From Chaetoceros tenuissimus (lineage: Eukaryota; Bacillariophyta; Thalassiosirophyceae; Chaetocerotales; Chaetocerotaceae), in the NCBI GenBank assembly GCA_021927905.1, contig BLLK01000038.1, positions 1,054,001 to 1,118,000 of the forward strand: a DNA stretch of 64,000 nt, given 5' to 3'. The position numbers were made by a program, and so were the translations under genes. The notes beneath the pieces were generated by a model that saw nothing but the letters and a program-made list of their open reading frames with translations, was not told the DNA's origin and ran no database searches. Shown here piece after piece: positions 11,569 through 62,228 of the stretch; the first letter of the stretch is position 1; the number at the start of each line of letters is the position of its first letter.

Positions 11569-12180
11569 TTAAATGTCAATGTACCCTTCTTTTCTTCCAT
11601 CACCTTCGTCTTCATCAACACGAACTTGAGGTTGGTCAAAAAACTTCATTATTCTTTCTATTTCGCTTTCAATTTCCCCACTTGAATAGCTAATATCCCA
11701 ACCAAATTTCTTGATCCAACTCGCAATAGAACTCTCTTCTCTCCTGTCTGGAGCTTCATCCCTTCTTACATAAACTGATGATGAACTGCTGCTTTCACTC
11801 AAAAGATCTGCAAGTGATGGCACTTCTCCACCATTTGCAACAACTATAAAAAAGCAACCATACAAAGGCAGTTCTGGTAATAATTTTTTCAGAGCCTTCA
11901 CCTTTGGCCTAGTATATACAAGCATGTTAAGAAGACCACCGATCGGATAAAAGAGCGAAGAGATCCAAAAGGATACTTCGTTATTATTGATTTTTGCAAC
12001 AGTAGTACCCATTTCGATCAATGGACCAGTGTATACCAGTACAAAAGCAAAGACATAGCGCGCAGATTGGCGAGCGGCAGCTTTCGTCAATTTCATTCGT
12101 TGTACTTCTTTTTGTTCTGCTTCATTATTTGATTCATCATTGGCGACAGGATTTGGAGATTTGTTCTCTTTATCTGCACC
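11569..12180 (-). pseudogene. C-terminal fragment of a 7TM receptor-like gene
   Basis: Encodes the last two membrane helices and tail of the same family as the complete 7TM gene at 26998-28637. Shared landmarks are FYPIGGLLNMLVYTRPKVKAL (compare VNILVFTRPAISNL there) and VANGGEVPSL (compare LLNGGEVPVL). The first in-frame ATG is at 12096, but the frame is open and receptor-like (charged loop before helix VI) to about 12180, where it runs into the copia remnant. Helices I-V are absent from the window side examined. It is therefore a truncated gene copy, cut where the retroelement remnant begins. Not expected to make a working receptor. Confidence 0.65.
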
Positions 12181-13748
12181 ACTTTCAATTTGGAATTTGT
12201 GATACCTTCGAAGATATAGGCATGTTTTGCAACATCAGATAATTGGTCCGGTAATGGAAGGTAACCGTCTTCGTCACTTGTTGTTTCGGAAGAATCAGGG
12301 AGTTGAACAGATGGTCCATTTTTTATCTTGGATCTATTTTTTAAAATATGAGCATCTTTTTTCCTACCATAATGTCCTGTTGCACCGGAATCAAGTTTTG
12401 CGACAACGGAGTTTCTCCGCGAGGACGTTTTGGTAGTGTTTCCGAAAGAAGAGTGGAATGTGACATTTTTGGCACGATCGGTCAACGCAAGATGGGAAGC
12501 TGCTACAGATTTGTAAGAGGGGGGAACTACAGAGTTTGAAGAGTAAATTCTTTTTGCAATTGGATTTAATTTATCTTTTAACTCGGTCCCACCTCGTCAC
12601 AAGCGATTGATGAAGTTGGTACTGCCTCCCATGCGATTGTTCTTCGTAGCCTCATCCTTATGACCCTCTGCTTTATTTCTGCATTCTGGAGACTTGTGAT
12701 TGCAAGCACCATGAGTCCAGCAGTATTCGGTGTAACGACGAGTGCGTGGATTACGACGAGTGTCATTTGGAGTATCATTGTCAGTGGTACGTGATTCTAG
12801 CTGTTGAAGGCGACGAAGGATCTTGGCTAGGGATGAAGCAACGTCCGTGTTAGACGAATTTGCTTGGAGAGCAAGAGCCTGTTGAAAAGTACTCGCAAGA
12901 TTAGCAGTGAGCTGTTCACGTTCTTGATCTTGGATAGTAAGGACGTTGGATTCAAGCATGAATCTGTGACACTCATTGAAGTAGGTCACTAAATTAACCC
13001 AAGTCTTATCTTGCTGAGGTTTCTTCTTCCATTCCTTAATATCTTCAGTGAACTTTCCTGTCTTAGTTAACAGGTACAACACCTTATCTATCTTCCATGC
13101 TTCAGTAACTGGGACGTTTTGACGTTCTCCTGCCTCTGCATGGTTCTTAAGTAGAGTCCAGATGGTAGCGATTGGATCATGTGGATCATAGAAGTGTTGG
13201 TTGATCTTGATTTCTCTGGAGGACATGGGTTCGTCACTTGTCTTGTAATTTTCTGCTAAATAAGCGATGACCTCACTCAAAGACCTGTCAAGAGACTGAG
13301 TATGTTCATTGATAATAGAACTTAAGTAGATGGGTTCAATTGCACTCTCAACCTGAGCCAAGAGTGCAAGTTCCACACCTGTGTATCTGTCAAAGTTGTT
13401 GACAGCTTCCTGATGGTTCCTTTCAGCTGCAGAGATCTGGGCTGCAGTTGCACCTACTGGAATCTGAGGAAGAGGTCCTGGATGCACAGGACGGATTACA
13501 GGAACCGTTCCTGGGATTGCATTAAAATCGGCATCTGTTAGTACTAGAAAGATGTGGCCATGTTGAGCTCCACCGAGAGTAGAGGTAACGGACTTTGCAT
13601 TTTTAGTTAGCTCCTTCTTCATGTAAGCGACACTGTCAGTTGTAGGCGGGCCTACGATGGGAGTGGCTGTCTTCACTGGGAAGTACAATTTGTTGTAATC
13701 AATTTGTTGTGACATTTGATTAGAATGAATAATTACTTGGTATGTCAA
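12130..13748 (-). mobile_element. Ty1/copia (CoDi-like) LTR retrotransposon remnant: gag and part of protease
   Basis: A broken retroelement on the minus strand. Gag-like coding lies at about 12597-13715 (first ATG near 13715). Its end has a zinc-knuckle-like Cys/His cluster (YCWTHGACNHKSPECRNKAEGH), as in diatom copia elements. Downstream at about 12130-12485 is part of an aspartic protease with the LDSGATGH active-site signature. Integrase, reverse transcriptase and RNase H are missing: the remnant stops at the 7TM gene fragment. A leader or LTR may extend to about 14.0 kb, but no pair of LTRs was identified in the window. It carries several breaks and is clearly non-autonomous; age cannot be set without a second LTR. 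Confidence 0.75.
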
Positions 13749-46319: not shown

Positions 46320-47726
46320 ATGTCTGGTAAAGTTTTCGAATCATACTTCAGAGAAATCTACTCTGACCTATCAGTTACTGCAGAAGAGTCTGATGCCATC
46401 AAAGATAAACTAGAAGAATCCAACATTCCGCCTGATAAACTAGTCTGGCTTCGTTCTTCTGCATTTCGTATCGGATGCCAGTATCTATCCGATGATAATG
46501 ACTCCAATATTAATTTATTGAAATGTATCAATAGAGTAGTACATGCTATTGAGGATACCTGCATGGGACCTACAGTCGAGGCTGAAAATGAATCTTTTAG
46601 TGAAGAAGCGGTGGAAGAACTCTATCGTACACTCTTTACTGATCTTGTGGTAGATTCCGAAGAGAATCAAGAGCTTTTTGAATTCTTTCGTGGAGATAAT
46701 CGTCCACCAGAAGATAAATTTGTTTGGACGAGAGCATCTGCTTTTAGAATGGGTGTTGAGTTCCTTGGTGAAGATCGTGATACCAATGTTTCTTTGTTGA
46801 AATGTATCAATAGCATCGTTCATGCTCTTGAAATGACCTGTATGAAACCTAAGCCTTATGAACTCAAGGCAGATATTCCTGAGGATATGAGTGATATGAG
46901 TCTTGCTGAGGCCCTTCAAACTCTTTGGGATCTTGATTTGAATCGTCTTACTCCTGGAGAAGATTATCAGATCAATGTACAGGAAGGTAAAAAGGCATAT
47001 TGGAAAGAGGACAAAGCAGAAGATCCACTATTTACCTTTGTTGATAGAAGTGCCTTTCGTAGACCTACCTATAAAGCTTTCATTGCTTTACTTGATAACT
47101 ACACAGCAGAAACAGGAGTGCGTGAAGCTGTGACTTATGAAGAAAGAAAAGAGAATTGGAGCTTTTTGAGAGCCATCATGGAATCTGGACCTATGCAATT
47201 TTGTCACAAGTACTGCATGTCAAAGAATCCAGATGTTCCGTCTGATAGAGATGAATTCATGAAGATGCTGAACAACATGTGGTTTGGTATCTACAGAAGA
47301 GGTGGATCTGGAGGAGATAGCTCTGGTTTCGAGCATGTATTCGCGGGAGAGTTGAAGAACGGTAAAGTTTCTGGGTTTCACAACTGGGTATACTATTATC
47401 TTGAAGAAAAGAAGGGAAATGTCGACTACCGTGGATATATTTACCCTCGCAGTTATTCTGATGCAGAAACTAATGCAAATGATCATGTTCTGACTCTCCA
47501 ATTTGAATGGCAAGGGGTTCTCAAGAATGTAGGGACATCATTTATTGGCGTATCTCCTGAATTTGAAATGGCACTTTACACCATGTGTTTCTTCGCTGGG
47601 GAAAAGGAGAATATCTTTGACTTGGATACTGGTTCTGATGTTTTCAAGCTGAACTGTAAGGTATATACAATGGGAAGTGACAAGATTGGAACAAGCTATG
47701 TAGAGACAATGGGACATGAAGATTGA
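46320..47726 (+). CDS. EndoU-type endoribonuclease with duplicated N-terminal module
   Basis: 468 residues, single exon, no signal peptide. The C-terminal half is a eukaryotic XendoU domain: catalytic His in GFEHVFAGE (about 338), second His in GFHNWVYYYLEEKKG (about 352), and the Lys in VLKNVGTSFIGVSPEFEMALYT (about 402). These enzymes cut at uridines, leaving 2',3'-cyclic phosphate ends. The first ~180 residues are two copies of an ~80-residue helical unit: YFREIYSDL...LRSSAFRIGCQYL...LLKCINRVVHAIEDTCM and LYRTLFTDL...TRASAFRMGVEFL...LLKCINSIVHALEMTCM. I do not recognise this module; it may regulate or dimerise the nuclease. Confidence 0.88.
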   Translation: MSGKVFESYFREIYSDLSVTAEESDAIKDKLEESNIPPDKLVWLRSSAFRIGCQYLSDDNDSNINLLKCINRVVHAIEDTCMGPTVEAENESFSEEAVEELYRTLFTDLVVDSEENQELFEFFRGDNRPPEDKFVWTRASAFRMGVEFLGEDRDTNVSLLKCINSIVHALEMTCMKPKPYELKADIPEDMSDMSLAEALQTLWDLDLNRLTPGEDYQINVQEGKKAYWKEDKAEDPLFTFVDRSAFRRPTYKAFIALLDNYTAETGVREAVTYEERKENWSFLRAIMESGPMQFCHKYCMSKNPDVPSDRDEFMKMLNNMWFGIYRRGGSGGDSSGFEHVFAGELKNGKVSGFHNWVYYYLEEKKGNVDYRGYIYPRSYSDAETNANDHVLTLQFEWQGVLKNVGTSFIGVSPEFEMALYTMCFFAGEKENIFDLDTGSDVFKLNCKVYTMGSDKIGTSYVETMGHED

Positions 47727-50195: not shown

Positions 50196-53100
50196 TTATT
50201 CAAAGATGGTGAACTTATGCTCCTCACTCGTGAATTTCTCCTGAGAACTTGGGGCACAATTGCCGAACTTGACAGTTTCTTTTCTGAGTTTATCAGGGGT
50301 ATTGAACTTGGATGACTTGACTACATTGCCATCCCAACTTACAGTATAGTCTCCAGATTTATTCGTAAAACCGTCCCCTTTTTTCTTAGCCCCGGAGTCA
50401 AAAATTTGGAAAAGGTAGCAGTTGTTAGGATTCAAACATTTCCTCCAATTGTATGTACCGTTTGGAATATCAAAATTTCGCTGGTTGCGACGAAAGACTG
50501 TTTTCGAAAAGACGCATTTGTTCGTTGTACATGCTTTTGATGATTTCGATGCTTTCGATGATTTCGATGCTTTCGATTCTTTCGCTGGCTTCTTTACTAC
50601 AATGAAATTTTCTTTTGTTGAACTATCAAGATTGACTTCAACTTGAAAAGATTTATGACCTGGCTTAGAGCATTCCGTGGAAAGAGATGGTGATACTGAT
50701 GGATATGATGACGGGTCGCATAAACCGCATGCAAGAGTACAAGCAGCACCCGTACGAGATAAAGTAAAGCCGTCCTTTTTAAAGCAGTATTTGGCACGAC
50801 GAGTCTTACGTTTGGCAAGTTTGTTTGTAGAAATAAATTTGCACATTCGGAATTTGCCTGGTCTTACTTGAAATTTGTACTGTGGATCATTGTTGCAGTC
50901 AACAGGATACGTGCTTGGTGTCTCTACGGAAGGTTTTGAGGTCGGTGAAGGAGAAGGCTTGGAACTCGGTGAAGGAGAAGGCTTGGAACTCGGTGAAGGA
51001 GAAGGTTCGGAGCTCAAGAAAGGAGAAGGCTTGGAACTCGGTGAAGGAGAAGGCTTGGAACTCGGTGAAGGAGAAGGTTCGGAGCTCAAGAAAGGAGAAG
51101 GTTCGGAGCTCAAGAAAGGAGAAGGTTTGGAGCTAGGTCCTTTAGATCTCACTATTGAAGGTGTATCTGAAGCCTTTACGCTAGGTGCAGATGATGGAGA
51201 ACGAGTCGTAGACGAAGAGTCTACATTGAATGTTACAATTTGGCCTGCATTACAATGAAATCCATTTCCTTTTGAGCAAAGAAATGTAAAAGATCCCTCT
51301 TTTGAGAAACGGTAAGTGAATGAGGTCTTGCCTGGGATATCTCCTCCAATATTCGTGAGTTTACCATTACATTGGCCATTGCTTGTGAAATAGACTGCAG
51401 AAATAAACTTCAAATGAGCAAAATGGTACTGTCTGATAGATCCATGCTTGTAAACAGCTTACTTACCATCATGACTTCCTGGGGTTGTCCAAACAAATCT
51501 AATAGAGTCTCCAACGTTGATTTCCTGATCTCGAAAAGGTTCTACAGGAATAAACCAGGAAAAATCGATGACATTACCAATGGGATCAGATGGACTACTT
51601 GATGGTTTGGAGCTGATTATTTCAGATGTTGACGGTGAATTAGTTATTGTTGGACTTGATGTTGTAGAATACCCATAGAATACATCAGTTCCAAAGAGGT
51701 TCTCTGTGAATTTCATTCGATTTGGAAGAATTTCATTAAGATCCGCATTGGTAGTAACGCCGAACCATTGCACCACTGCATTCCACATTGCCTCGAAAGG
51801 TGTAGTTGGAAACAAAACTCCACGCTCATTAATAGAGTTTGGTCCAGTTGGAGAAAGATCGGAAGGATATCGACCAAGAATTTTTCCACCTTCTATTGCT
51901 CCGCCAAAGACAAAGTGATTTCCGGCCCACGCTATAAATAGAGATGATATATAGGTTAGCTATTGATCTGGAATATATGCAGGAGTTCATCTGTAGAAAT
52001 TCTGGAATAGATGTCAAGCTATTTCGAAGTAAAGACTACTTACCATGATCAGTTCCATTTCCCGAGTTTGAAGATAATGTTCTGGCAAACTCGGATATGG
52101 AGACAACAGTTATGTCGTTCCACTCTTTTTTAGAACTCAGTTCATCTTTAAAAGCACCAATTGCGCCATTAAGTTCCGTAGTTAGACCGTCAAATGCTTC
52201 TGCAAATTTATTATGTGTATCAAATCCATCTGAGTAATCGCGAGGAGAATGAGTTTGTTTGAAATATTGAAATAAAAGCGAGAAAGATTAGGATATTCTT
52301 TACCTTGTTGAACAAAGAAAACATCTCTATCCACGCCTCTATCGTCTTTTGTTTGGATCATTTTCGCGACCGTTTCTAATTGCTCTCCAAGTCTGGTATC
52401 TGGAAATGTTGTCTTGGTCGTCACTGTTTGCAAAATATCATACAATAGCTGGTTCTCTGCTAGTCCCTGATGCAATGTTGAAGAAAAAGTCTCTGATAGA
52501 AGGTTTGAACCTATACTTGTTGCTTTGTTCAATTGTTTGACAAAATCAATTAGTACATTGGGATCGCTGCCTTCGGCTGAAATTGGGTCAAACTTCTCAT
52601 ATTTTGATGCAGATGGAACAGAGATGATTGGTGCCTTATTACCTACTAATGTTTGTGAGGCCCTTCGTGCTGTTGAAATAGAATTGACCTTGAAACCTTT
52701 TCGACTCAATACATCCAGCAATCTGCCTGCCATGCCTCTACCCGACTGTTGATTAAAGATGTCCATCAATTGGATCTCTAATTGTTGAGTATTGTGAGCA
52801 AAGAGAGCAGTGTTTCTTGATTTATCTTTCCAATTTTCTTTGTTGATACCGGCTTCTTGTAATACCCCAATGTTTGACAGGAAAAGTAGCTCTTTGTCAT
52901 TGTACATTTTTCGAAGACTGGACAAGTTTTGATGAAGTCCAAACTTCGAACATGGTTGGGAAGATCCACTCGCATCGATAGTAAGCAAAGAATCTTGAGG
53001 CAAAGCTACGAAATTTCTGACTGAAGCATATTTTTTGTAAAGCCAATCGCATTTTGGAACAAGCATGTTGTAAGAGTCAGCGCCTCCAGATAAATTAAGA

Positions 53101-56100
53101 ATCACAATAGCTTTGTACGGTTTGGTAGATGGCTTTGGAGCTGGGATTTCAGGTCGTTGTGTCGCTTGTAGATTGACCAAGCCAGAAGAATGGAACTCAG
53201 GAGTGCTGGTCACAAGCTTTTGGAGTAAAGAAACATCTTTTGTAGACCTGTAAGCATTTAGTAAAATGGACTTTGTGTTCTCGTTCAATCTGCCTGCCGT
53301 CAGGAGCAAACTAAGCTCATCGATAATAGTTTTTCCTGATGACTTGTCTAAGGATACAGTCAGTTTTCCCCTGTTGTAGGCATTTGGATCCTTCTTCCCA
53401 CCTGGCAAATATGCTTGACAATTCTCTTCAAAGCGCCCATCACCAAAGCCACCAAAACAGCGCATCAGTCCTAGTTCCGTCAGTGACCAAATACCATTAT
53501 TGAGGGCTGTGAGGGAAGGGCCGTTCATTACCATATCTTCAGGACTGGTCAATGATGCTGCTTTGATATGACCGGAAGCGGAATGTTCGGGCAAAAAGAA
53601 ACTGAAAACATTTGGAATGGAATGAACATTTTGACCTATCCTTTCTTGTAATGCATTGAGACGAAGTTCGGGAGCGAGTCCTTTGCTTTTGAATTCCATA
53701 GCTCTCATGAAAGCTACAACCTTCAGCAAAGGTTCTCTCAGAGAACCTTGGGTTGGATCTGCATCCAACACTTCGGACCTTGCTTCGTCATGCAAAACGA
53801 TAGCTGCAATCATTGATGCCATTGAACCATAATTCCCATCGCCAAAAGTTTCGCCTGTCATAGAGGTATAAATACCATTTTTGAAAGCAGTTGCAACAGC
53901 CTCTATGTAATTCGGAGACGGATTTGAAGTTCCAAAGCGCTGAATCATGCGTAGAGCTAAGAACGGTGGAACATTTTCATGATGAAAGTAATGATTGAGG
54001 ACAGCATCCGTTTCATCAAGAGCATCTCTGGCTTCTCTTGCCACGTAGTTTAAAAACTGAACTGGGTTCCTGAAAGAATACTTGCTGGTTCCAAGGGTTA
54101 CCGTTGACAGTTCGTTCTTGTAATAAGATGTCTTCTTATTTTGTGAAACTCGAAATATAGTTTCTTTATCATATTGCCCAGATTTTGAATATGCAATGAC
54201 ATCTCTATTTTTACTCGCCTCTAGCTCAGAGTATTCTTCAGACATAGTGACATCGATTCCACCAATGGTTAGACTGTTCTCAATGGATGAAATGCTGGGC
54301 AAAGAAGTAAACACAGGCTTATCTTTGATGCGAACTTCACAAAGGCACTCTGAGGTTGACGGCTTGTAGCTGCAACCACTGCTACTACATTCAGACTCAT
54401 TGGATGGATATCCATTGGTCCACAAGACCTTGAAGTAATTTGGATTGTCGACGTCTACATTGATATCAACAATTCGTTCTCTTTTCGGTTTAGAGAGAAA
54501 AATTGGATTGTGGACAATAGCGACTGCTCCTGTGTCTACCACGACTAAGAAATAAATGTGAATAACAAAACAAGGTCAGTGGTAAGGCCAACGAGAAAAC
54601 AATCAAGTTCAAATCAGCAGCCATCATGTCTCACCTTTAGCTTGCAAAGTACAGCTACTGTCTGACTGCCAATAGTAATTATCATCATGATTGAGTTGAC
54701 ATGCTTTATTCACATTGGTGTTAATAGAGTCACTCTGACACTGACTGCCACCTGCTATTTTACTACATCTGGCAGCAGATGTTTCTAGAGTCGTCTTTTC
54801 TGCAGTGTAACGACATTGCAATTGTACTCGAGGAAATTCATTCTCTGGGTTTTCACAGCAGGATGCCATTGCAAGAGGAAGACGAGCATTGGCACACAAA
54901 GCAGTACGTGGATCCCTTGCCTTTAGAATATAAAAAAAGTTAATCTTGCATGCATGGAACAAGAATGACATCCACATCACCCTTATACTCACTTGGATTG
55001 TTACTGAATTCTCAAAGAAAGTCTTTTCGACACAAGGTTGGCGAACATACTCATAATGTACATCAGGATCACTTTGTATTTTAATCAATCGCAAAGTATC
55101 CACATCGCATTCAGGGTCGCCATCTGAACAAGACAAATCAGAATCAAGAGTCATAACAGGGGCAAATTCACATCTTCCAACCCTGCCCTGGCAGAGATAA
55201 TTGAAAAGATCTGATGATGTATTCAATTCAAGCGTCTCGACATCTTTATTTCGGCGGACCCACGAAGACGGTTGACTATGGTGGAGAGGGACACGGGACG
55301 ACCCGATAAGCACATATCTTGCTCCTGATGATAATTTGTTAACAAGTTAGAACTTTCACATATATGAAGGAAAAAAAGATTCAAGCGGATGCCATCACTA
55401 GATACCTACCCTTCTTCAAAAAGTGCTTGGCAGGAAGATCGGAACAAAGGGGATAACCATCCCCAATGTACCCATTCCTCAAATTTGTTTTTGGCTAACG
55501 GCAAAATATGAGTATGAAATGAAAGGAAAGAAAATAGTTTTACACAAGAAGTAGGAGTGAAAGACATACCGAGGGATCCCTCCACAGACCATTCACACGC
55601 ATAGGATCTACTTGATTGAGATCCCGAAACTGTCCTTCAATGTTGGAGCGATGAGGTGAGGGAAAGAAACCAGTCCATGCTCTTGCAAAGTTTTGAATAT
55701 CTTCCGCAGCGTACGTCAAGATAGGGGAACCATTTTCATCTAACTTTCTTGACCCGTCTAAATTCAATTCATAAACCCCAATGGAGAACAACTGCATAAC
55801 TTCTCGGGCGCTACAAAAAGGGAAGGTTAGAGCAAACTAGGAAACTCTCCATTCAACTCTGCTATTTCACTCACAAATTTTCGTCTGGGTATTGTAGAAT
55901 TCCAAGATTACGATAAACATAAGGTCTACTGACTGATTCAATATATCCAAGCATCTCTCCCATCTTCATGGTTGGAAAAGGAATTATTGAAGTCAGAATA
56001 TAATTCAGCAAGGGTTTAATCATGAATATGGAAACTACTCACCATAGGACTAAACGATACTTCTTTTAGAATATCGAAATAGTTTCCGAATGCATGTTTT

Positions 56101-58058
56101 ACAAAGATATCGTAATAATTGAGGTAGTTTTCCGCGGAGTCTTTGTTGTTGATTTGATTAGGTGTAATGACAAGTATTTGACTCAAAGCAAAGGCAACTC
56201 TCTGCCGAAGTTGATCTATGCCACTCAAAGCAATCATAGTCCATACTGACTTTTTCTGAGACCCAAATTCAGCTTTTATTTTGATATCCGTAGTTTCCTT
56301 GAACTGGAAAATGCTTGACCCATTTGGTCTGTTCGCAACTTCTTGGTCAGATCCACAAACTACAACTGCGCTTCCAGCTGGAAGATTCTCATAAGCTCTA
56401 TCAATGACAGAAGAACAAGCACCATCATTGAATGTTAGTGCACAACGATCAGAGTTGAACATGTCCATGATTGGGTTTGAGCATCTATCAACTCCACTTC
56501 CATTGAAAAGCGGTTCTCGGATTGTATTCTTTTCAATTTCAAGATATCTGGCATATCTTAGTTGTACACCAGATGAAGAAGTACCTACAATGTACGTGCT
56601 ATTTGAAAGATCAAAACTTGCGCAAAGAGGATCATTGAAGTCTTCACGAACAATGAAATTGCCATCAAGACTCCGACCATTCCCGGTCTCAATGATTTTT
56701 ACAGCTTTTAAGTTTGATTCCTTGATTGAGTTGCGGAGGAATCTGTAAACGGAAGCTTTCTTGGAAAGCTTGAATGGAGGGTTGCCACCCTTCACATACT
56801 TAAAAGCATTATTAGAACCTTTCTTTCTCACTCCTATGAATTTTGAATGATAAATTTAGATGTCAAACAGAACATTGAGCATACTACCATGGAAATGTAC
56901 AAAACTCACTGAAGGTTCCTCCCAATTTCTCTTGGACAGACCCAATCTCAAACGAACCAGCCCACAAGTTTTTACCTATAAGAGTTAGGGTTTGGTTAGG
57001 GCATTTTTCCGACAATGATATGTAATTTTCGAAAATTCTTACCGTCATCATCAACCCATTCCTCCATGATTGTACGAAGAATAACCCTGGAGTCAGGTAA
57101 GGTCTGTCGAATGTACCATCGATTATCGTTTCCTTTCTTGACATCCAAAATAACATCCCTGCTATCGTTGAATGTGAAACTGTAACTCATCCATCTAGCG
57201 CCTGAAACACATGGATTCCGAACTTTCAATAGCTGTCCTCGAGCTGGATTTTCCCACTCAGACTTTAGTTCACCATTGACACGATGTCTGAAATATCTTC
57301 TATGTGATGTCATAGCAGTAGTGCGCTTGTTCATTTGATCCTGTACCCAAGATACCATTTCGGAATTGAGATTGCGACTAAAGTCCCAACTGTTTAGCAT
57401 TTCCTTGGTGGGACCAAAAGTGGTTTGGTGAAAAAACCTAGACACTTTTTCGCGCTTGGTCAAAGAATGTTCAAATGGCATGAACACTAGTCTTCCCTTT
57501 TCTAAATCAGAGAGATCCGGGATAAGGATCTCACAAACAGAAGAAGATGGACGGCAATCAATAGTCAAGGATTGCGAGTAAGGCCCTGCTACTCGCTGCC
57601 AATCTTTACCATCATAAGAGCGAGATACAGGAGCTAAATTGTAATCAGCTAGACCTGAATCCTTGTTGAAATCTTGCAAACGAGCTTCACCAATGGCAGT
57701 GACACGGAAAAGCATGCATAATTCTTTTGCTTTGCTTTTTTGAACCTTGATTCGTCCAACACGATCTTGAATTGAAAAATAGACGAAACGTTAGAAAACA
57801 AAAGATTTCCAATACATCCAAATTAGAAGGCCCTGTGTAGAGAGGCATCTTCGCGAGAAGAAATTGATTTCAGTACAGCTTTCTAGCAATCCATAACCGA
57901 TCGTTTCCCATAGGGTAAATCTTAAGCTTCAAATTATACTCACCATAGATGACTTTCAACTCCTCGCCAACATCATTACATGAGTATGGACGAGCCGGAC
58001 TCTCAGCAGCGGCTAGCTTTCCAAAAAGGAAACCGACTATTAAGTTCGAGATACGCAT
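50196..58058 (-). CDS. secreted DUF1800-DUF1501-phytocyanin fusion, 13 exons, 2272 aa
   Basis: Exons: 58058-57944, 57765-57043, 56975-56910, 56833-56043, 55963-55875, 55810-55570, 55494-55410, 55324-54993, 54920-54635, 54544-52304, 52229-52044, 51931-51467, 51394-50196. All introns are GT-AG, and all phases agree (6819 nt). Signal peptide MRISNLIVGFLFGKLAAAES. DUF1800 runs about 140-1280 (RFFHQTTFGPT, LRQRVAFALSQILV, ENFAREVMQLFSIGVYELN). DUF1501, an alkaline-phosphatase-superfamily relative, runs about 1380-1810 (ILNLSGGADSYNMLVP, QQDGFDTHNKF, SEFARTL, GTDHAWAGNHFVFGG). Next comes a phytocyanin-like copper domain (SHDVYF and CSKGNGFHCNAGQ: His, Cys, His, Gln). Eight-residue Ser/Pro repeats, a Cys-rich ShKT-like segment and a Lys/Ser tail follow. 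In bacteria DUF1800 and DUF1501 are neighbouring genes. Function unknown; extracellular or frustule/wall-related by inference. Confidence 0.85.
50945..51136 (-). repeat. 24-bp minisatellite, about 8 units
   Basis: Tandem gaaggagaaggcttggaactcggt-like units encode the KPSPxxSS/EPSPxxSS linker of the 13-exon gene. Units alternate among three variants. Confidence 0.9.
54921..54992 (-). other. stop-free 72-nt intron of the 13-exon gene
   Basis: GTGAGT..CTAAAG; 24 codons with no stop. Splicing joins NSVTIQ to ARDPRTALC. If kept, it would add a hydrophobic 24-residue insert to DUF1800. Confidence 0.75.
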
Positions 58059-58206: not shown

Positions 58207-58720
58207 TGCTCTGCACTCATGCGAAATCGTCTTCCATTGCATCATTGGTTCGAAATAAGTGTCAGTCTTGTTTCAAAGGGAGGTATTGTATTAGTATTTT
58301 AGTCTCCTTCTCGAGATTGAACGATTGAACGTATGTACGTCAGCAAACTCAGCATAAGTTCAAAGGCGAATCTTTTCATTTCTTTCAAGAAACGGAAACA
58401 AAAGGGAAAGAGATGAAAAGCTTAACAATGTATTGCCAAACCGCCAAATAACTGTAGAACATATTTTACCCTAAGGTCAAAGGGGCTAAACGACTGTGGA
58501 GTATTTTAAACCATCATATCACTATTCCCATCATTACTCTGGTGATGATAAATATTGTCTGATGATGCTCTATCTTTCCGCTCAAGATCAAGTGGTTCAA
58601 GTACTACAAATTAGTAATAAGAAGAATAACCCTAATCGAGACAACATTTACTTGATCCAGCGACATTAAAAAGAAGTCTCTCTTGAGTTTATTAGAGCAA
58701 ACATTGAATTCTTGCCTAAT

Positions 58721-58876: not shown

Positions 58877-60433
58877 TTACTCGCACTGAGCAGCAAGCCA
58901 TTCTGGAGTAACACTCTTTGGTCTCTCAAGAGGAAGTCCAAGAGCACGATCCCAGTAAAGTTGACTCAATGCTCCAACTGCACGAGAAACTCCGAACAAT
59001 ACAGTGTAGTATTGGTACTGTTTAAATCCATAATGCCAAAGAAGAACTCCAGAGTGAGAATCAACATTAGGGTATGGGTTTGCAGTCTTTCCGTGCTCAG
59101 TCAAAATTCCTGGCATGACAGAGTAGATGGTATCTACAATCTTGAAAAGTTGATCATCTGGCATATGCTTCAATGCAAATTCTCTCTGACAGGTATAACG
59201 TGGATCAGTCTTACGAAGAACTGCGTGTCCATATCCTGGAATAACCTTTCCAGCATTCAAAGTATCCCATGCAAACTCAGTAATGGTATCAGCATTAACT
59301 TCCTTACCCTCAGCCTCGAACTTTGCACTCAATTCCTGAATCCACTTGAGTACTTCCTGATTTGCAAGTCCGTGAAGTGGTCCAGCAAGTGCATTCAATC
59401 CAGCAGAATAAGACAAATATGGATCGGAAAGGGTAGATCCTACCAAGTGAGTGGTGTGCGCAGAAGCATTTCCTCCCTCGTGATCAGTGTGAATACAAAG
59501 GTAAAGACGCATAAGTTCATCAAAGGACTTATCGTCATACCCAAGCATACGGCAAAAGTTTCCAGAGTAATCAAGGGACATATCCTTGTTTACAACTCCA
59601 TCATGGTATACGTTACGGTAGATGGTTGCTGCAATTTCCGGAAGGATAGCAACAACATCAAGAATATCCTCAAGTACATGTTTATGGTATTCGGACTTGT
59701 GTACTCCCTCCGAATAAGCCTTTGCGAATTTAGATTGTACCTGTGCCGCATTCAATCCGATGGAGAATTGAGTCATTGGGTGCATATCCTTTGGAAGAGA
59801 GTTAAGAAGCGGAATAACATTCTCAGGAAGCTTGGAACGCTCATGCAATTCAGCAGTAAGGGTATCTACCTGTTCCTTTGTTGGTACTTCAGAGGTAAGA
59901 AGAAGCCAAAGAAGGGATTCAAGAAGAGGTTCTCCATCGCCAGCCTTTCCCGAGTAAGTTGGGAGTACTTGTTGACATTCAGGGATGGTGAGTCCACGGA
60001 AACGGATTCCTTCATTTGCATCCAAGTTGGATGTTTCCCAAAGCATGCACTTGACTCCACGTGCTCCTCCGATACATTGATCAATGGTAACTTCTCCAAT
60101 CACTTTACTTCCGTGCTCCTTTTTGAGTGCAAGGAGAGACTTTTGCTTCTCAGGTACTTGTGCCATGAGTGTCTCAGTAAGAGTAGTTACGGAACGAGAT
60201 GTCAAGTTTGCAGCATTCTTTGCTCCCATTGCCTGTCAGAAGAAAGTCACGACATGAGTAAGTAATTGCAATAGTCTGGATATCTTTCCATTTTCATTGG
60301 CGAGCGTGTTCGCATCATGGAAGATGTGTGTCACTAATGAATTTGACTTTTAGCCAGAGAATCATGACATGATCACATCTAGATGACTCACCTTCTTGGC
60401 AAGAGACTTTGCTCCATTGGAAAGAAACGACAT
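58877..60433 (-). CDS. mitochondrial citrate synthase, 2 exons, 465 aa
   Basis: Condenses acetyl-CoA and oxaloacetate to citrate, the entry step of the TCA cycle. Exon 1 60433-60392 ([14 protein letters not shown]), intron 60391-60233 (159 nt, GTGAGT..GACAG), exon 2 60232-58877; 1398 nt in frame. The exon 1 peptide plus [14 protein letters not shown] is a basic, acid-free mitochondrial presequence, so the start at 60433 is preferred over the ATG at 60229. Active-site motifs are intact: [11 protein letters not shown] (His), [14 protein letters not shown] (His, Arg), and the Asp in [14 protein letters not shown]. Length and motifs fit the eukaryotic type I enzyme. Divergent from pyruvate dehydrogenase E1 alpha. 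Confidence 0.96.
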
Positions 60434-61019: not shown

Positions 61020-62228
61020 ATGTTTTCATTGGCAAGATCATCCTTGAACGCAGCAAAAAGAGCTGCTTCTGGCAACAGCCTCAAGCTCGCTACCAGAACC
61101 ATGTCTTCCGATAGCGTTACCTTCGACCTTACTGGATCCTTCCAGCTACACAACCTCGACACTGCACCGAATAACGAAATCACAATGACAAAGGAGGAGC
61201 TACTCGAACACTTTAGACTCATGTACACCATGCGTAGAATGGAAATCACCTGTGATAACGAATACAAAGCAAGAAGCATTCGCGGATTCTGTCATCTCTA
61301 CGATGGACAGGAGGCAGTAGCCACCGGAATCAATGCTGCTTTCGAACCGGAAGATTCATGGATCACCTCTTACAGATGTCACTGTATCTCCCTTGCAAGA
61401 GGAGGAAACGTTGCCAACATTCTTGCTGAACTGTTTGGAAACGCAGGAGGACAGACCAAGGGAAAAGGAGGTTCCATGCATTTTTACTCCAAGGAAAATA
61501 ACTTTTTTGGAGGACAGGGAATTGTAGGTGCTCAGGTTCCTGTTGGGACTGGACTTGCTTTTGCGAATAAATACAATGCCAAGCCTGGTGAGAAGATGAA
61601 TGTTGCCATTGCATGTTATGGAGATGGAGCTGCAAATCAGGGACAGATTTGGGAGTCTGCTAACATGGCTAGTTTGTGGAAGTTGCCAATGATTTTCTGT
61701 ATTGAGAATAATCATTATGGTATGGGAACCAGTATTGAACGTCACTCGTCTCATTCCGATTACTACAAAATGGGAAACCATATTCCTGGAATTCGTATTG
61801 ATGGTATGAACGTTCTTGCTGTCAAGGAAGGAATGAGATTTGTCAAGGATTTCTGTGGGTCTGGAAATGGACCAATGTATGTTGAAATGATGACTTATCG
61901 TTACCATGGACACAGTATGTCTGATCCTGGAACTACCTACCGTAACCGTGAAGAGATTGCAATGACTCGTTCTACTCGTGACCCTCTTGAGTTTGTTAAA
62001 AAGACTTTGATTGATAATGGACTTGTTGAGGCAGAAGAGATCAAGGCTATTGAGAAGGAAATTCGTAAGCATGTGCAGTCCGAGACCAAGAAGGCGAAGG
62101 AGTTCCCTGATGTTGAATTGAGTCAGTTGTTTGACTATGTTTATGCTGCAGAAATCGATGGATACAAACAGGAGGTTCCAGATTACATTCGTATGCCTGA
62201 CTACGCAAAGAGTTTCTGGAAGTCATAA
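61020..62228 (+). CDS. mitochondrial pyruvate dehydrogenase E1 alpha subunit
   Basis: 402 residues, single exon. With E1 beta it decarboxylates pyruvate using thiamine diphosphate and acetylates lipoyl-E2. Basic presequence MFSLARSSLNAAKRAA, no acids in the first ~29 residues, supports mitochondrial import. The ThDP motif runs from GDGAANQGQ to ENNHYGMG. The phosphorylation loop YRYHGHSMSDPGTTYR holds the serine that regulatory PDH kinase targets in animals. TMRRMEITCDNEYKA and GFCHLYDGQEAVATG are standard family segments. Its plastid counterpart would be shorter and more bacterial, so the mitochondrial form is favoured. Adjacent to citrate synthase, its downstream partner. Confidence 0.96.
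   Translation: MFSLARSSLNAAKRAASGNSLKLATRTMSSDSVTFDLTGSFQLHNLDTAPNNEITMTKEELLEHFRLMYTMRRMEITCDNEYKARSIRGFCHLYDGQEAVATGINAAFEPEDSWITSYRCHCISLARGGNVANILAELFGNAGGQTKGKGGSMHFYSKENNFFGGQGIVGAQVPVGTGLAFANKYNAKPGEKMNVAIACYGDGAANQGQIWESANMASLWKLPMIFCIENNHYGMGTSIERHSSHSDYYKMGNHIPGIRIDGMNVLAVKEGMRFVKDFCGSGNGPMYVEMMTYRYHGHSMSDPGTTYRNREEIAMTRSTRDPLEFVKKTLIDNGLVEAEEIKAIEKEIRKHVQSETKKAKEFPDVELSQLFDYVYAAEIDGYKQEVPDYIRMPDYAKSFWKS

Follow-up and report, generated by a model that had tools for sequence, protein, structure and literature searches.

A DUF1800-DUF1501 fusion gene of probable bacterial origin and its paralogues in the diatom Chaetoceros tenuissimus

DUF1800 and DUF1501 are, by their Pfam names, bacterial families without known function, and the presence of both in what looks like one gene of the diatom Chaetoceros tenuissimus raises the question of whether a bacterial gene pair has become a single eukaryotic gene and, if it has, what its product might do. 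The window analysed here is a stretch of 64,000 nucleotides, to which all coordinates refer. From its sequence, an initial annotation had proposed a single gene of 13 GT-AG exons encoding about 2270 residues, with a signal peptide, both DUFs, a cupredoxin, Ser/Pro repeats and a Cys-rich segment.

The gene and its family

The spliced frame is open for 2272 residues across 12 GT-AG introns of 64-178 nt, with a stop codon ending at 50196, and a homology-free dynamic-programming gene model, whose codon usage was trained on this same gene, recovers the same 13 exons with an in-frame upstream ATG at 58220 as the single difference. Two crude gene models were rejected: one ended after 3 exons and 93 codons, and the other misplaced the start of exon 2, left exons 8 and 9 unsplit and overran the stop. 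The exon joins are further supported because the domains are split across them, with DUF1800 in exons 2-10, DUF1501 in exons 10-12 and the cupredoxin across exons 12 and 13. The parts of the gene are as follows.

50196..58058, minus strand: whole gene, 13 exons, 2272 aa
58058-57944, 57765-57043, 56975-56910, 56833-56043, 55963-55875, 55810-55570, 55494-55410, minus strand: exons 1-7
55324-54993, 54920-54635, 54544-52304, 52229-52044, 51931-51467, 51394-50196, minus strand: exons 8-13
57999..58058, minus strand: signal-peptide-like N-terminus by hydropathy, aa 1-20
Exons 1-2: N-terminal domain preceding the DUF1800 start, aa 21-144
57266..57448, minus strand: DUF1800 start with RFFHQTTFG motif, aa 145-205, from alignment with L030/L132, L130 and L131
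55450..56270, minus strand: DUF1800 core, aa 490-690, exons 4-7, with DENFAREVMQLFSIG and Arg672, from Pfam PF08811 and conservation
54036..55449, minus strand: DUF1800-internal insertion of 389 aa, aa 691-1079, exons 7-10, 18 Cys
53178..54035, minus strand: DUF1800 C-terminal half, aa 1080-1365, exon 10
53118..53177, minus strand: fusion linker of 20 aa, aa 1366-1385, sharing one open frame with DUF1800 and DUF1501
51708..53117, minus strand: DUF1501, aa 1386-1793, exons 10-12, from Pfam PF07394 and conservation
51222..51572, minus strand: phytocyanin-like cupredoxin, aa 1839-1931, exons 12-13, predicted ligands H1872, C1913, H1920, Q1925
50910..51215, minus strand: Ser/Pro-rich repeats, aa 1934-2035, 67% Ser+Pro
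50715..50909, minus strand: Cys-rich segment, aa 2036-2100, 6 Cys in 65 aa
50199..50714, minus strand: C-terminal region with a lysine-every-third-residue cluster, aa 2101-2272

The proposed gene structure is thereby borne out, and the Ser/Pro repeats and Cys-rich segment are both present. Checked by profile search, the two DUFs lie well above their Pfam cut-offs: DUF1800 (PF08811) matches in two stretches at E 6.7e-45 (154.4 bits against 26.1), and DUF1501 (PF07394) at E 1.1e-22 (81.1 bits against 27). The N-terminus is hydrophobic, as a signal peptide should be, with a hydropathy of 2.17 over the best 10-aa stretch in the first 35 residues, a measure of hydropathy and not the output of a signal-peptide predictor; the protein is apparently secreted. 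A hydrophobic N-terminus is likewise clear in 12 of 17 diatom models, the remaining five being rough at their 5' ends.

The fusion is no one-off. Together with 17 further loci that the initial annotation had not included, the window gene belongs to a family of 18 DUF1800-DUF1501 loci in the 41-Mb genome, a count obtained by grouping 42 match pieces manually and merging partial tandem copies with their neighbours. DUF1501 is found at all 18, at 16 by Pfam; a local profile detects it at the other two (C17 and C34_5). The paralogue models other than that of the window gene are rough, and some run into neighbouring genes.

Given that the bacterial relatives are two genes, it is worth considering whether the diatom DUF1800 and DUF1501 might also be two adjacent genes instead of one protein, and the two domains do fall outside a single unspliced frame at 7 of the 18 loci. 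Against this, a single stop-free frame in exon 10 runs from the last part of DUF1800 into the first part of DUF1501, with about 20 aa between them, and the fusion therefore requires no assumption about splicing. One such frame crosses the junction at 11 of the 18 loci, with that of C27_75 and C27_76 taking in only the first ~20 DUF1501 residues. Furthermore, the junction exon is under purifying selection, with a dN/dS of 0.18 across exon 10 relative to the closest paralogue; the same simple Nei-Gojobori count gives 0.13 for DUF1501, 0.23 for DUF1800 and 0.37 for the cupredoxin. Two separate genes are thus extremely improbable, and we are confident that this is a single fused gene of bacterial origin.

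Bacterial gene pairs and the donor

That DUF1800 and DUF1501 are usually encoded side by side in bacteria, as the initial annotation had stated, was confirmed in 80 bacterial loci, which are the best 80 of at least 576 confirmed candidates and not a random sample. Both genes are present at 71, and at 67 of these DUF1501 lies directly downstream of DUF1800 (within -1500..+400 nt) on the same strand; a fused gene was found at none of the 71. The four outside the distance limit are L055, L069, L100 and L103, the last with a second DUF1501 directly downstream, and among the nine loci lacking a DUF1501 frame, seven stop where the DUF1800 frame ends or close to that point, while L033 and L090 do not. 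The diatom protein therefore has the same domains in the same order as the bacterial pairs, of which those of Opitutia (L030/L132, L130 and L131) are the nearest, and it keeps the key DUF1501 residues. It differs in being one gene with a single N-terminal signal, introns, two large insertions and, in some copies, extra C-terminal domains, whereas the bacterial DUF1501 mostly has a twin-arginine-like start of its own (a loose pattern finds it in 65 of 71, with some misses arising from misplaced anchors). Visual inspection of the linkers in the window protein and 14 paralogues revealed no twin-arginine signal.

The surroundings of the bacterial pairs are also informative. Ten hand-picked same-strand downstream neighbours comprise five F5/8 type C proteins (three with a T9SS sorting tail), one exosortase, one adhesin-like DUF2807 protein, one sigma factor and two proteins without a family, and three third genes from Opitutia end in what we take to be a PEP-CTERM-like tail. 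PA14, PKD, CHRD, TSP3 or FG-GAP domains occur in 9 of 13 bacterial DUF1800 proteins scanned, the nine having been chosen by length; no extra Pfam domain was found in the DUF1800 proteins of the nearest relatives, L030 and L130. Judged from gene content, the bacterial operon context is extracellular. A search for the third bacterial gene fused into the paralogues C17 and C54_82 gave no match. Separately, 11 loci were seen on viral contigs, at a best identity of 46%.

In the phylogeny, the 15 diatom proteins included (C33_90, C34_5 and C34_139 of the 18 loci were left out, as was the bacterial L131) form one clade with support of 100/100, nested among bacterial pairs and sister to L030 and L130, pairs from Opitutia, with 96.4/99. 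Examined separately, DUF1800 again places L030 and L130 as sister (support 0.97), and DUF1501 sets the diatoms beside L055 (support 0.62). AU tests of four trees, built by a fast search and accompanied by a tool warning of too few replicates, excluded none for DUF1501, where the grouping with L030 and L130 had the best likelihood; for DUF1800 they excluded the L055 grouping (p-AU 0.017; p-SH 0.058) and retained the others. Donor placement, as read from these alignments, rests on DUF1800, and DUF1501 alone leaves the donor open. L030 also scores 498 bits against the diatom profile, while the second-best of the 80 bacterial loci reaches 337, and the DUF1800 start together with part of the N-terminal domain aligns with L030/L132, L130 and L131. 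The N-terminal domain, which the initial annotation had not described, is shared in part with the nearest Opitutia proteins; with up to three candidates scored per genome, a match to this region at E <= 1e-8 was obtained for 3 out of 384 genomes from the class to which L030 belongs. An Opitutia-like donor is thus probable.

The cupredoxin was found at 5 of the 18 loci, and the four of these in the tree form one clade, which argues that it was gained after the fusion. The order of events suggested at the outset, a bacterial pair joined first and a copper domain added later, is consistent with this subset, with the single nested diatom clade and with the lack of fusions among the 71 bacterial loci. 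We propose that a diatom ancestor acquired an adjoining DUF1800-DUF1501 pair from a relative of Opitutia (Verrucomicrobiota) and that a single event joined the two frames. With the signal at the N-terminus of the DUF1800 part now sufficient for the whole protein, DUF1501 would have lost the export signal of its own. Introns and two large DUF1800 insertions would then have been gained, the fused gene would have multiplied to 18 loci, and the phytocyanin-like domain would have been added in one branch. The sequences show or support each of these steps, from uptake to phytocyanin gain.

Structural features of the three domains

The initial annotation had not noted that DUF1800 is interrupted by two insertions, of 284 aa and 389 aa. 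No counterpart of the longer one was observed in the bacterial relatives included in the comparison, and 17 of its 18 cysteines are each retained by 10-12 of the 12 sequences, the remaining one by 7. The bacteria-invariant block DEN-x-ARE-x-x-QL is present in the window protein, with each position kept in 14-15 of 15 diatom sequences. A bacterial histidine is not retained: His463 (L030 numbering) is His in every one of the 41 bacterial rows of one alignment, and its column in the joint alignment holds 69 His, 1 Gly and 2 gaps among 72 bacteria and Arg in all 16 diatom models, with Arg672 in the window protein. This histidine is not a Pfam criterion, and the joint alignment supersedes an earlier text-pattern search, which had recovered the residue from only 63 of the 80 bacterial frames. 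Comparison of a DUF1800 model with solved structures by Foldseek gave no match at E <= 0.001, and searching PDB sequences with single DUF1800 and DUF1501 stretches returned nothing credible.

For DUF1501 there is more to work with. The window protein has conserved residues D1399, H1493, D1660, H1662, E1703, D1717 and H1718, putative metal positions that are kept (as an acid at 1703) in 15 of 15 covering diatom sequences, H1493 in 14 of 14. A model of DUF1501 from a bacterial relative gave 17 PDB matches at E <= 0.001, led by choline sulfatase 6fny and Escherichia coli alkaline phosphatase 1kh5, at TM-scores of only 0.22-0.35; we take all 17 to be sulfatases or alkaline phosphatases. These matches and the Asp/His set underlie the prediction that DUF1501 is alkaline-phosphatase/sulfatase-like, and it differs from that superfamily in the low TM-scores and in having neither a conserved nucleophile nor the C/S-x-P-x-R motif of formylglycine sulfatases. 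Specifically, no column between D1399 and D1660 is Ser, Thr or Cys at 95% among 72 bacteria, and column 1492, which comes closest, has Ser in 64 of these 72 and Ala in 13 of 14 diatom sequences. Both cysteines of the window DUF1501 lie outside the sulfatase motif, S-x-P-x-R was not found by eye, and hhalign of DUF1501 against one sulfatase gave no support (probability 0.4%). The usual phosphatase or sulfatase chemistry is therefore doubtful. The extracellular enzyme originally envisaged is accordingly a putative one, no invariant Ser/Thr/Cys nucleophile having been found.

The cupredoxin assignment held under closer scrutiny, though below the Pfam cut-off. No Pfam match to it appears at E <= 1 in the whole window protein; alone, the domain scores 14.2 bits against PF00127 (cut-off 21.2), and 3 of the 5 copies match PF00127 at E <= 1, the best at 0.011. 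When the window sequence is searched alone against the PDB, antibody chains rank level with plastocyanin. A profile of the five paralogues finds umecyanin (2.1e-6), stellacyanin (2.3e-6) and plastocyanin (2.4e-6) among PDB sequences, and the predicted type-1 copper ligands H, C and H are present in all five copies, with the axial Gln in four and unclear in C38a. The domain thus resembles umecyanin and stellacyanin in its fold by profile and in the alignment of its Cys, His and Gln ligand positions; unlike phytocyanins and plastocyanin, it forms a single module towards the C-terminus of a larger protein with several domains.

Possible functions of the fused protein

We suggest that the protein may be secreted and located at the cell wall or within extracellular polysaccharide. 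There DUF1501 would use its predicted alkaline-phosphatase/sulfatase-like metal site to act on a glycan that carries ester groups and is presented by DUF1800, and the copper domain would be a side module for electron transfer or metal binding. Taken as a whole, from the Opitutia-like pair and its fusion to glycan action and the copper module, this explanation has about an even chance of being right. Action on extracellular glycans is a tentative proposal that we hold at somewhat less than even, and participation of copper electron transfer in the glycan reaction is distinctly unlikely. A bolder version, in which diatoms made a novel extracellular machine out of a bacterial surface operon and the fused protein uses a metal site without the usual nucleophile on the diatom's own wall or mucilage glycan and is coupled to blue copper in one branch, is doubtful.

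It is just as important to ask whether catalysis is involved at all. A catalytically dead scaffold or adhesin, serving as a structural wall protein with the cupredoxin, Cys-rich and Ser/Pro segments as wall-binding modules, would fit the lack of an invariant DUF1501 nucleophile, the diatom loss of the DUF1800 histidine, the surface modules of the bacterial partners and the wide divergence of C-termini among paralogues. The Asp/His set in all covering diatom sequences and the purifying selection on DUF1501 seemingly exceed what a scaffold needs, and we regard this alternative as unlikely, yet the most serious of those concerning function. A role in copper or iron handling, with the secreted cupredoxin as the working part and the DUFs as its carrier, draws on the conserved ligands; the domain was not found at 13 of the 18 loci and is thus better seen as an add-on to a pre-existing function, so that such a role has only a slim chance.

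The C-terminus suggests another possibility, a biosilica protein that is targeted to silica by its lysine cluster and acts in frustule formation or maturation. The cluster has seven Lys, one per three residues (aa 2142-2160), and among 2000 shuffles of the window protein a 5-K match occurred in 4 and a 7-K match in none. It resembles the pentalysine clusters that target silaffins in the portions consulted of PMC9650480, and in those of PMC7563939 DUF1800 and plastocyanin-type domains are both enriched among genes upregulated during calcium-induced biomineralization in Emiliania huxleyi. However, the K-x-x-K cluster was found in none of 16 other diatom models, closest paralogue included, and reads like a short tandem repeat, and a biosilica function is accordingly rather improbable. 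Emiliania huxleyi, with 10 DUF1800 genes in the background set of that study, is like the diatom an alga with several such genes (PMC7563939). In the sections consulted of PMC5122149, DUF1800 and DUF1501 genes lie beside bacterial chitin synthases, with which a functional link is proposed; there they are bacterial and unfused, and the diatom genome has no match to Chitin_synth_2 (PF03142, the one family searched) at E <= 0.001.

Among the open-access papers searched, four naming DUF1800 and ten naming DUF1501, no title mentions diatoms, and DUF1501 and diatoms were found named together only in the paper on bacterial and fungal chitin synthases; the fusion may thus be undescribed in open-access main texts. 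Because the fusion arose naturally and is maintained by purifying selection, it speaks strongly for DUF1800 and DUF1501 working as a unit, and the 18 diatom loci offer natural variants with which to find their role. If a metal site without a nucleophile does act on the diatom's own glycans, several paralogues would tailor different wall glycans. The family also presents a clear case in which the steps from a bacterial gene pair to a single eukaryotic gene, and then to the gain of a cupredoxin, are visible in living sequences.

A thirteen-exon gene and its family

As rebuilt from the sequence, the window gene (58058..50196, minus strand) comprises 13 exons joined across 12 GT-AG introns of 64-178 nt and encodes 2272 residues, its sole stop being the terminal one. 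A homology-free dynamic-programming model, whose codon usage came from the window gene itself, returned the same 13 exons and differed solely in an upstream ATG; together these models uphold the single gene of about 2270 residues proposed in the initial annotation. Two cruder models failed or were erroneous. The start at 58058 is supported by an equivalent start in the close paralogue C34_139 (MRTSKLAVSLLFGKL). DUF1800 spans exons 2-10, DUF1501 exons 10-12 and the cupredoxin exons 12-13; domain halves flank introns, and whole domains therefore require the exon joins. Three neighbours have no evident link to the fusion gene:

46320-47726, plus strand, XendoU endoribonuclease
58877-60229, minus strand, citrate synthase
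61020-62228, plus strand, dehydrogenase E1 component

Profile searches of the translated exons recovered DUF1800 (Pfam, 6.7e-45) and DUF1501 (1.1e-22), as had been anticipated, with the cupredoxin below the Pfam cut-off. Because the window cupredoxin by itself scores antibody chains level with plastocyanin in the PDB, its identity was decided by a five-copy profile, which matches umecyanin, stellacyanin and plastocyanin with E near 2e-6 and aligned ligand positions, and bears out the cupredoxin assignment made initially. Insertions of 284 and 389 aa separate the DUF1800 parts; the longer contains 18 Cys, of which 17 are conserved in 10-12 of the 12 sequences aligned, the window among them, and has no counterpart at its length among the bacterial relatives compared. 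Residues 2142-2160 (50535-50591, minus strand) include seven lysines, one per third residue (KPAKESKASKSSKASKSSK), resembling pentalysine silica-targeting clusters; this cluster occurs in none of 16 other diatom models. The genome also holds 11 silicon-transporter matches, which mark it as that of a diatom, three of them consecutive (G000:C17:442278-446357) and attributed to one 1459-aa open frame, with one match crossing two stops.

Across the genome (41.03 Mb, 68 contigs), 42 DUF1800 match pieces were grouped by us into 18 loci including the window. Pfam places DUF1501 after DUF1800 in 16 of these, and a window-derived profile adds C17 and C34_5. Both domains share one stop-free frame at 11 loci, and no unspliced frame holds both at the other seven; a cupredoxin was found in 5 of the 18, and a clear hydrophobic N-terminal stretch in 12 of 17 models. 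By a simple Nei-Gojobori count, dN/dS is 0.18 for exon 10 against C34_139 and 0.37 for the cupredoxin; exon 10 is, on sequence comparison, under purifying selection. In the closest paralogue, 86% identical along the exon 10 stretch, about 9.2 kb interrupt the gene at aa 1078 (C34:1386742-1395923; L021 about 4743 to L022 about 4023), within which three scanned frames gave no Pfam match above cut-off. Two paralogues, on contigs C33 (L013/L012) and C34 (L014-L016), have head-to-tail repeats of their N-terminal parts, spaced by about 8.04 and 9.47 kb, but only one C-terminal part, reflecting either real partial duplication or an assembly effect. Family C-termini differ by module: many Cys-rich modules are repeated at the end of the C38a model, and a different Cys module recurs several times at the end of the C42 model (L024 and L029).

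Bacterial relatives and probable origin

Among the best 80 of 576 confirmed bacterial candidates in the matches listed, 71 loci carry both genes, none fused, and in 67 the DUF1501 gene lies immediately downstream in the same orientation, in agreement with the side-by-side arrangement claimed initially. Far the closest of the 80 to the diatom profile is L030, from an Opitutia metagenome-assembled genome (498 bits versus 337 for the next), which shares part of the N-terminal domain with the diatom proteins. Of 384 genomes in that class (at most three candidates scored per genome), 3 match this region at E <= 1e-8; additional genomes match more weakly. In each of the three, DUF1800 is followed by DUF1501 and then by a third gene, the DUF1800 frame being broken in L131. 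The third genes, 3' of DUF1501, encode small proteins with a PEP-CTERM-like tail:

L130, 7478-8173
L131, 3120-3899
L132 (with L030), 11957-12736

Several other bacterial loci have an F5/8 type C protein in this position.

A combined tree covered 802 columns and 87 taxa, 72 bacterial and 15 from the diatom. In it, the diatom proteins form a single clade (100/100), sister to L030 and L130 (96.4/99), with the bacterial locus L072 next (99.9/100) and a weak node beyond (50.8/39). Of the proposed phylogeny of both DUFs, the DUF1800 tree recovered the same sister pair (0.97); the DUF1501 tree recovered diatom monophyly without a resolved sister, and an AU test on DUF1501 excluded none of the four trees compared, among which the Opitutia grouping was the most likely. 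Four of the five cupredoxin loci are in the tree and form one clade (96.2/99; 0.96 and 0.94 in the two single-domain trees).

Predicted activity and setting

A structure model of the L030 DUF1501 (46 sequences, pLDDT 86.5) resembles sulfatases and alkaline phosphatases, with 17 matches at E <= 0.001 and TM of only 0.22-0.35. All diatom sequences that cover the seven Asp/His/Glu positions retain them, and no invariant Ser/Thr/Cys was found at the expected nucleophile region. The DUF1800 model (pLDDT 74.6) has no PDB match at E <= 0.001. Ten hand-picked same-strand downstream bacterial neighbours include F5/8 type C proteins (5/10), sorting tails, one exosortase and one sigma factor, with no family assignment obtained for two. 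PA14, PKD, CHRD, TSP3 or FG-GAP domains occur in 9 of 13 bacterial DUF1800 proteins scanned, nine of which were picked for length; those of L030 and L130 lack additional domains. Bacterial neighbours and fused domains are thus often extracellular and glycan-associated.

This context, the seven kept positions and the sulfatase/phosphatase-like model lead us to favor a secreted glycan-acting complex. Ranked close behind is the idea that the DUF1800-DUF1501 protein acts as a scaffold. In the open-access literature searched, four papers mention DUF1800 and ten DUF1501. One study links both DUFs to bacterial chitin-synthase gene clusters (PMC5122149); this diatom genome gave no Chitin_synth_2 match at E <= 0.001. 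Another lists DUF1800 and plastocyanin-type domains as enriched in the gene set upregulated during calcium-induced biomineralization of Emiliania huxleyi (PMC7563939).

His463 of DUF1800 (L030 numbering) is present in 41 of 41 rows of the bacterial alignment and in 69 of the 70 with a letter in the joint alignment, and the corresponding position (window aa 672, exon 6) is Arg in all 16 diatom models; the diatom DUF1800 branch may therefore differ in activity.
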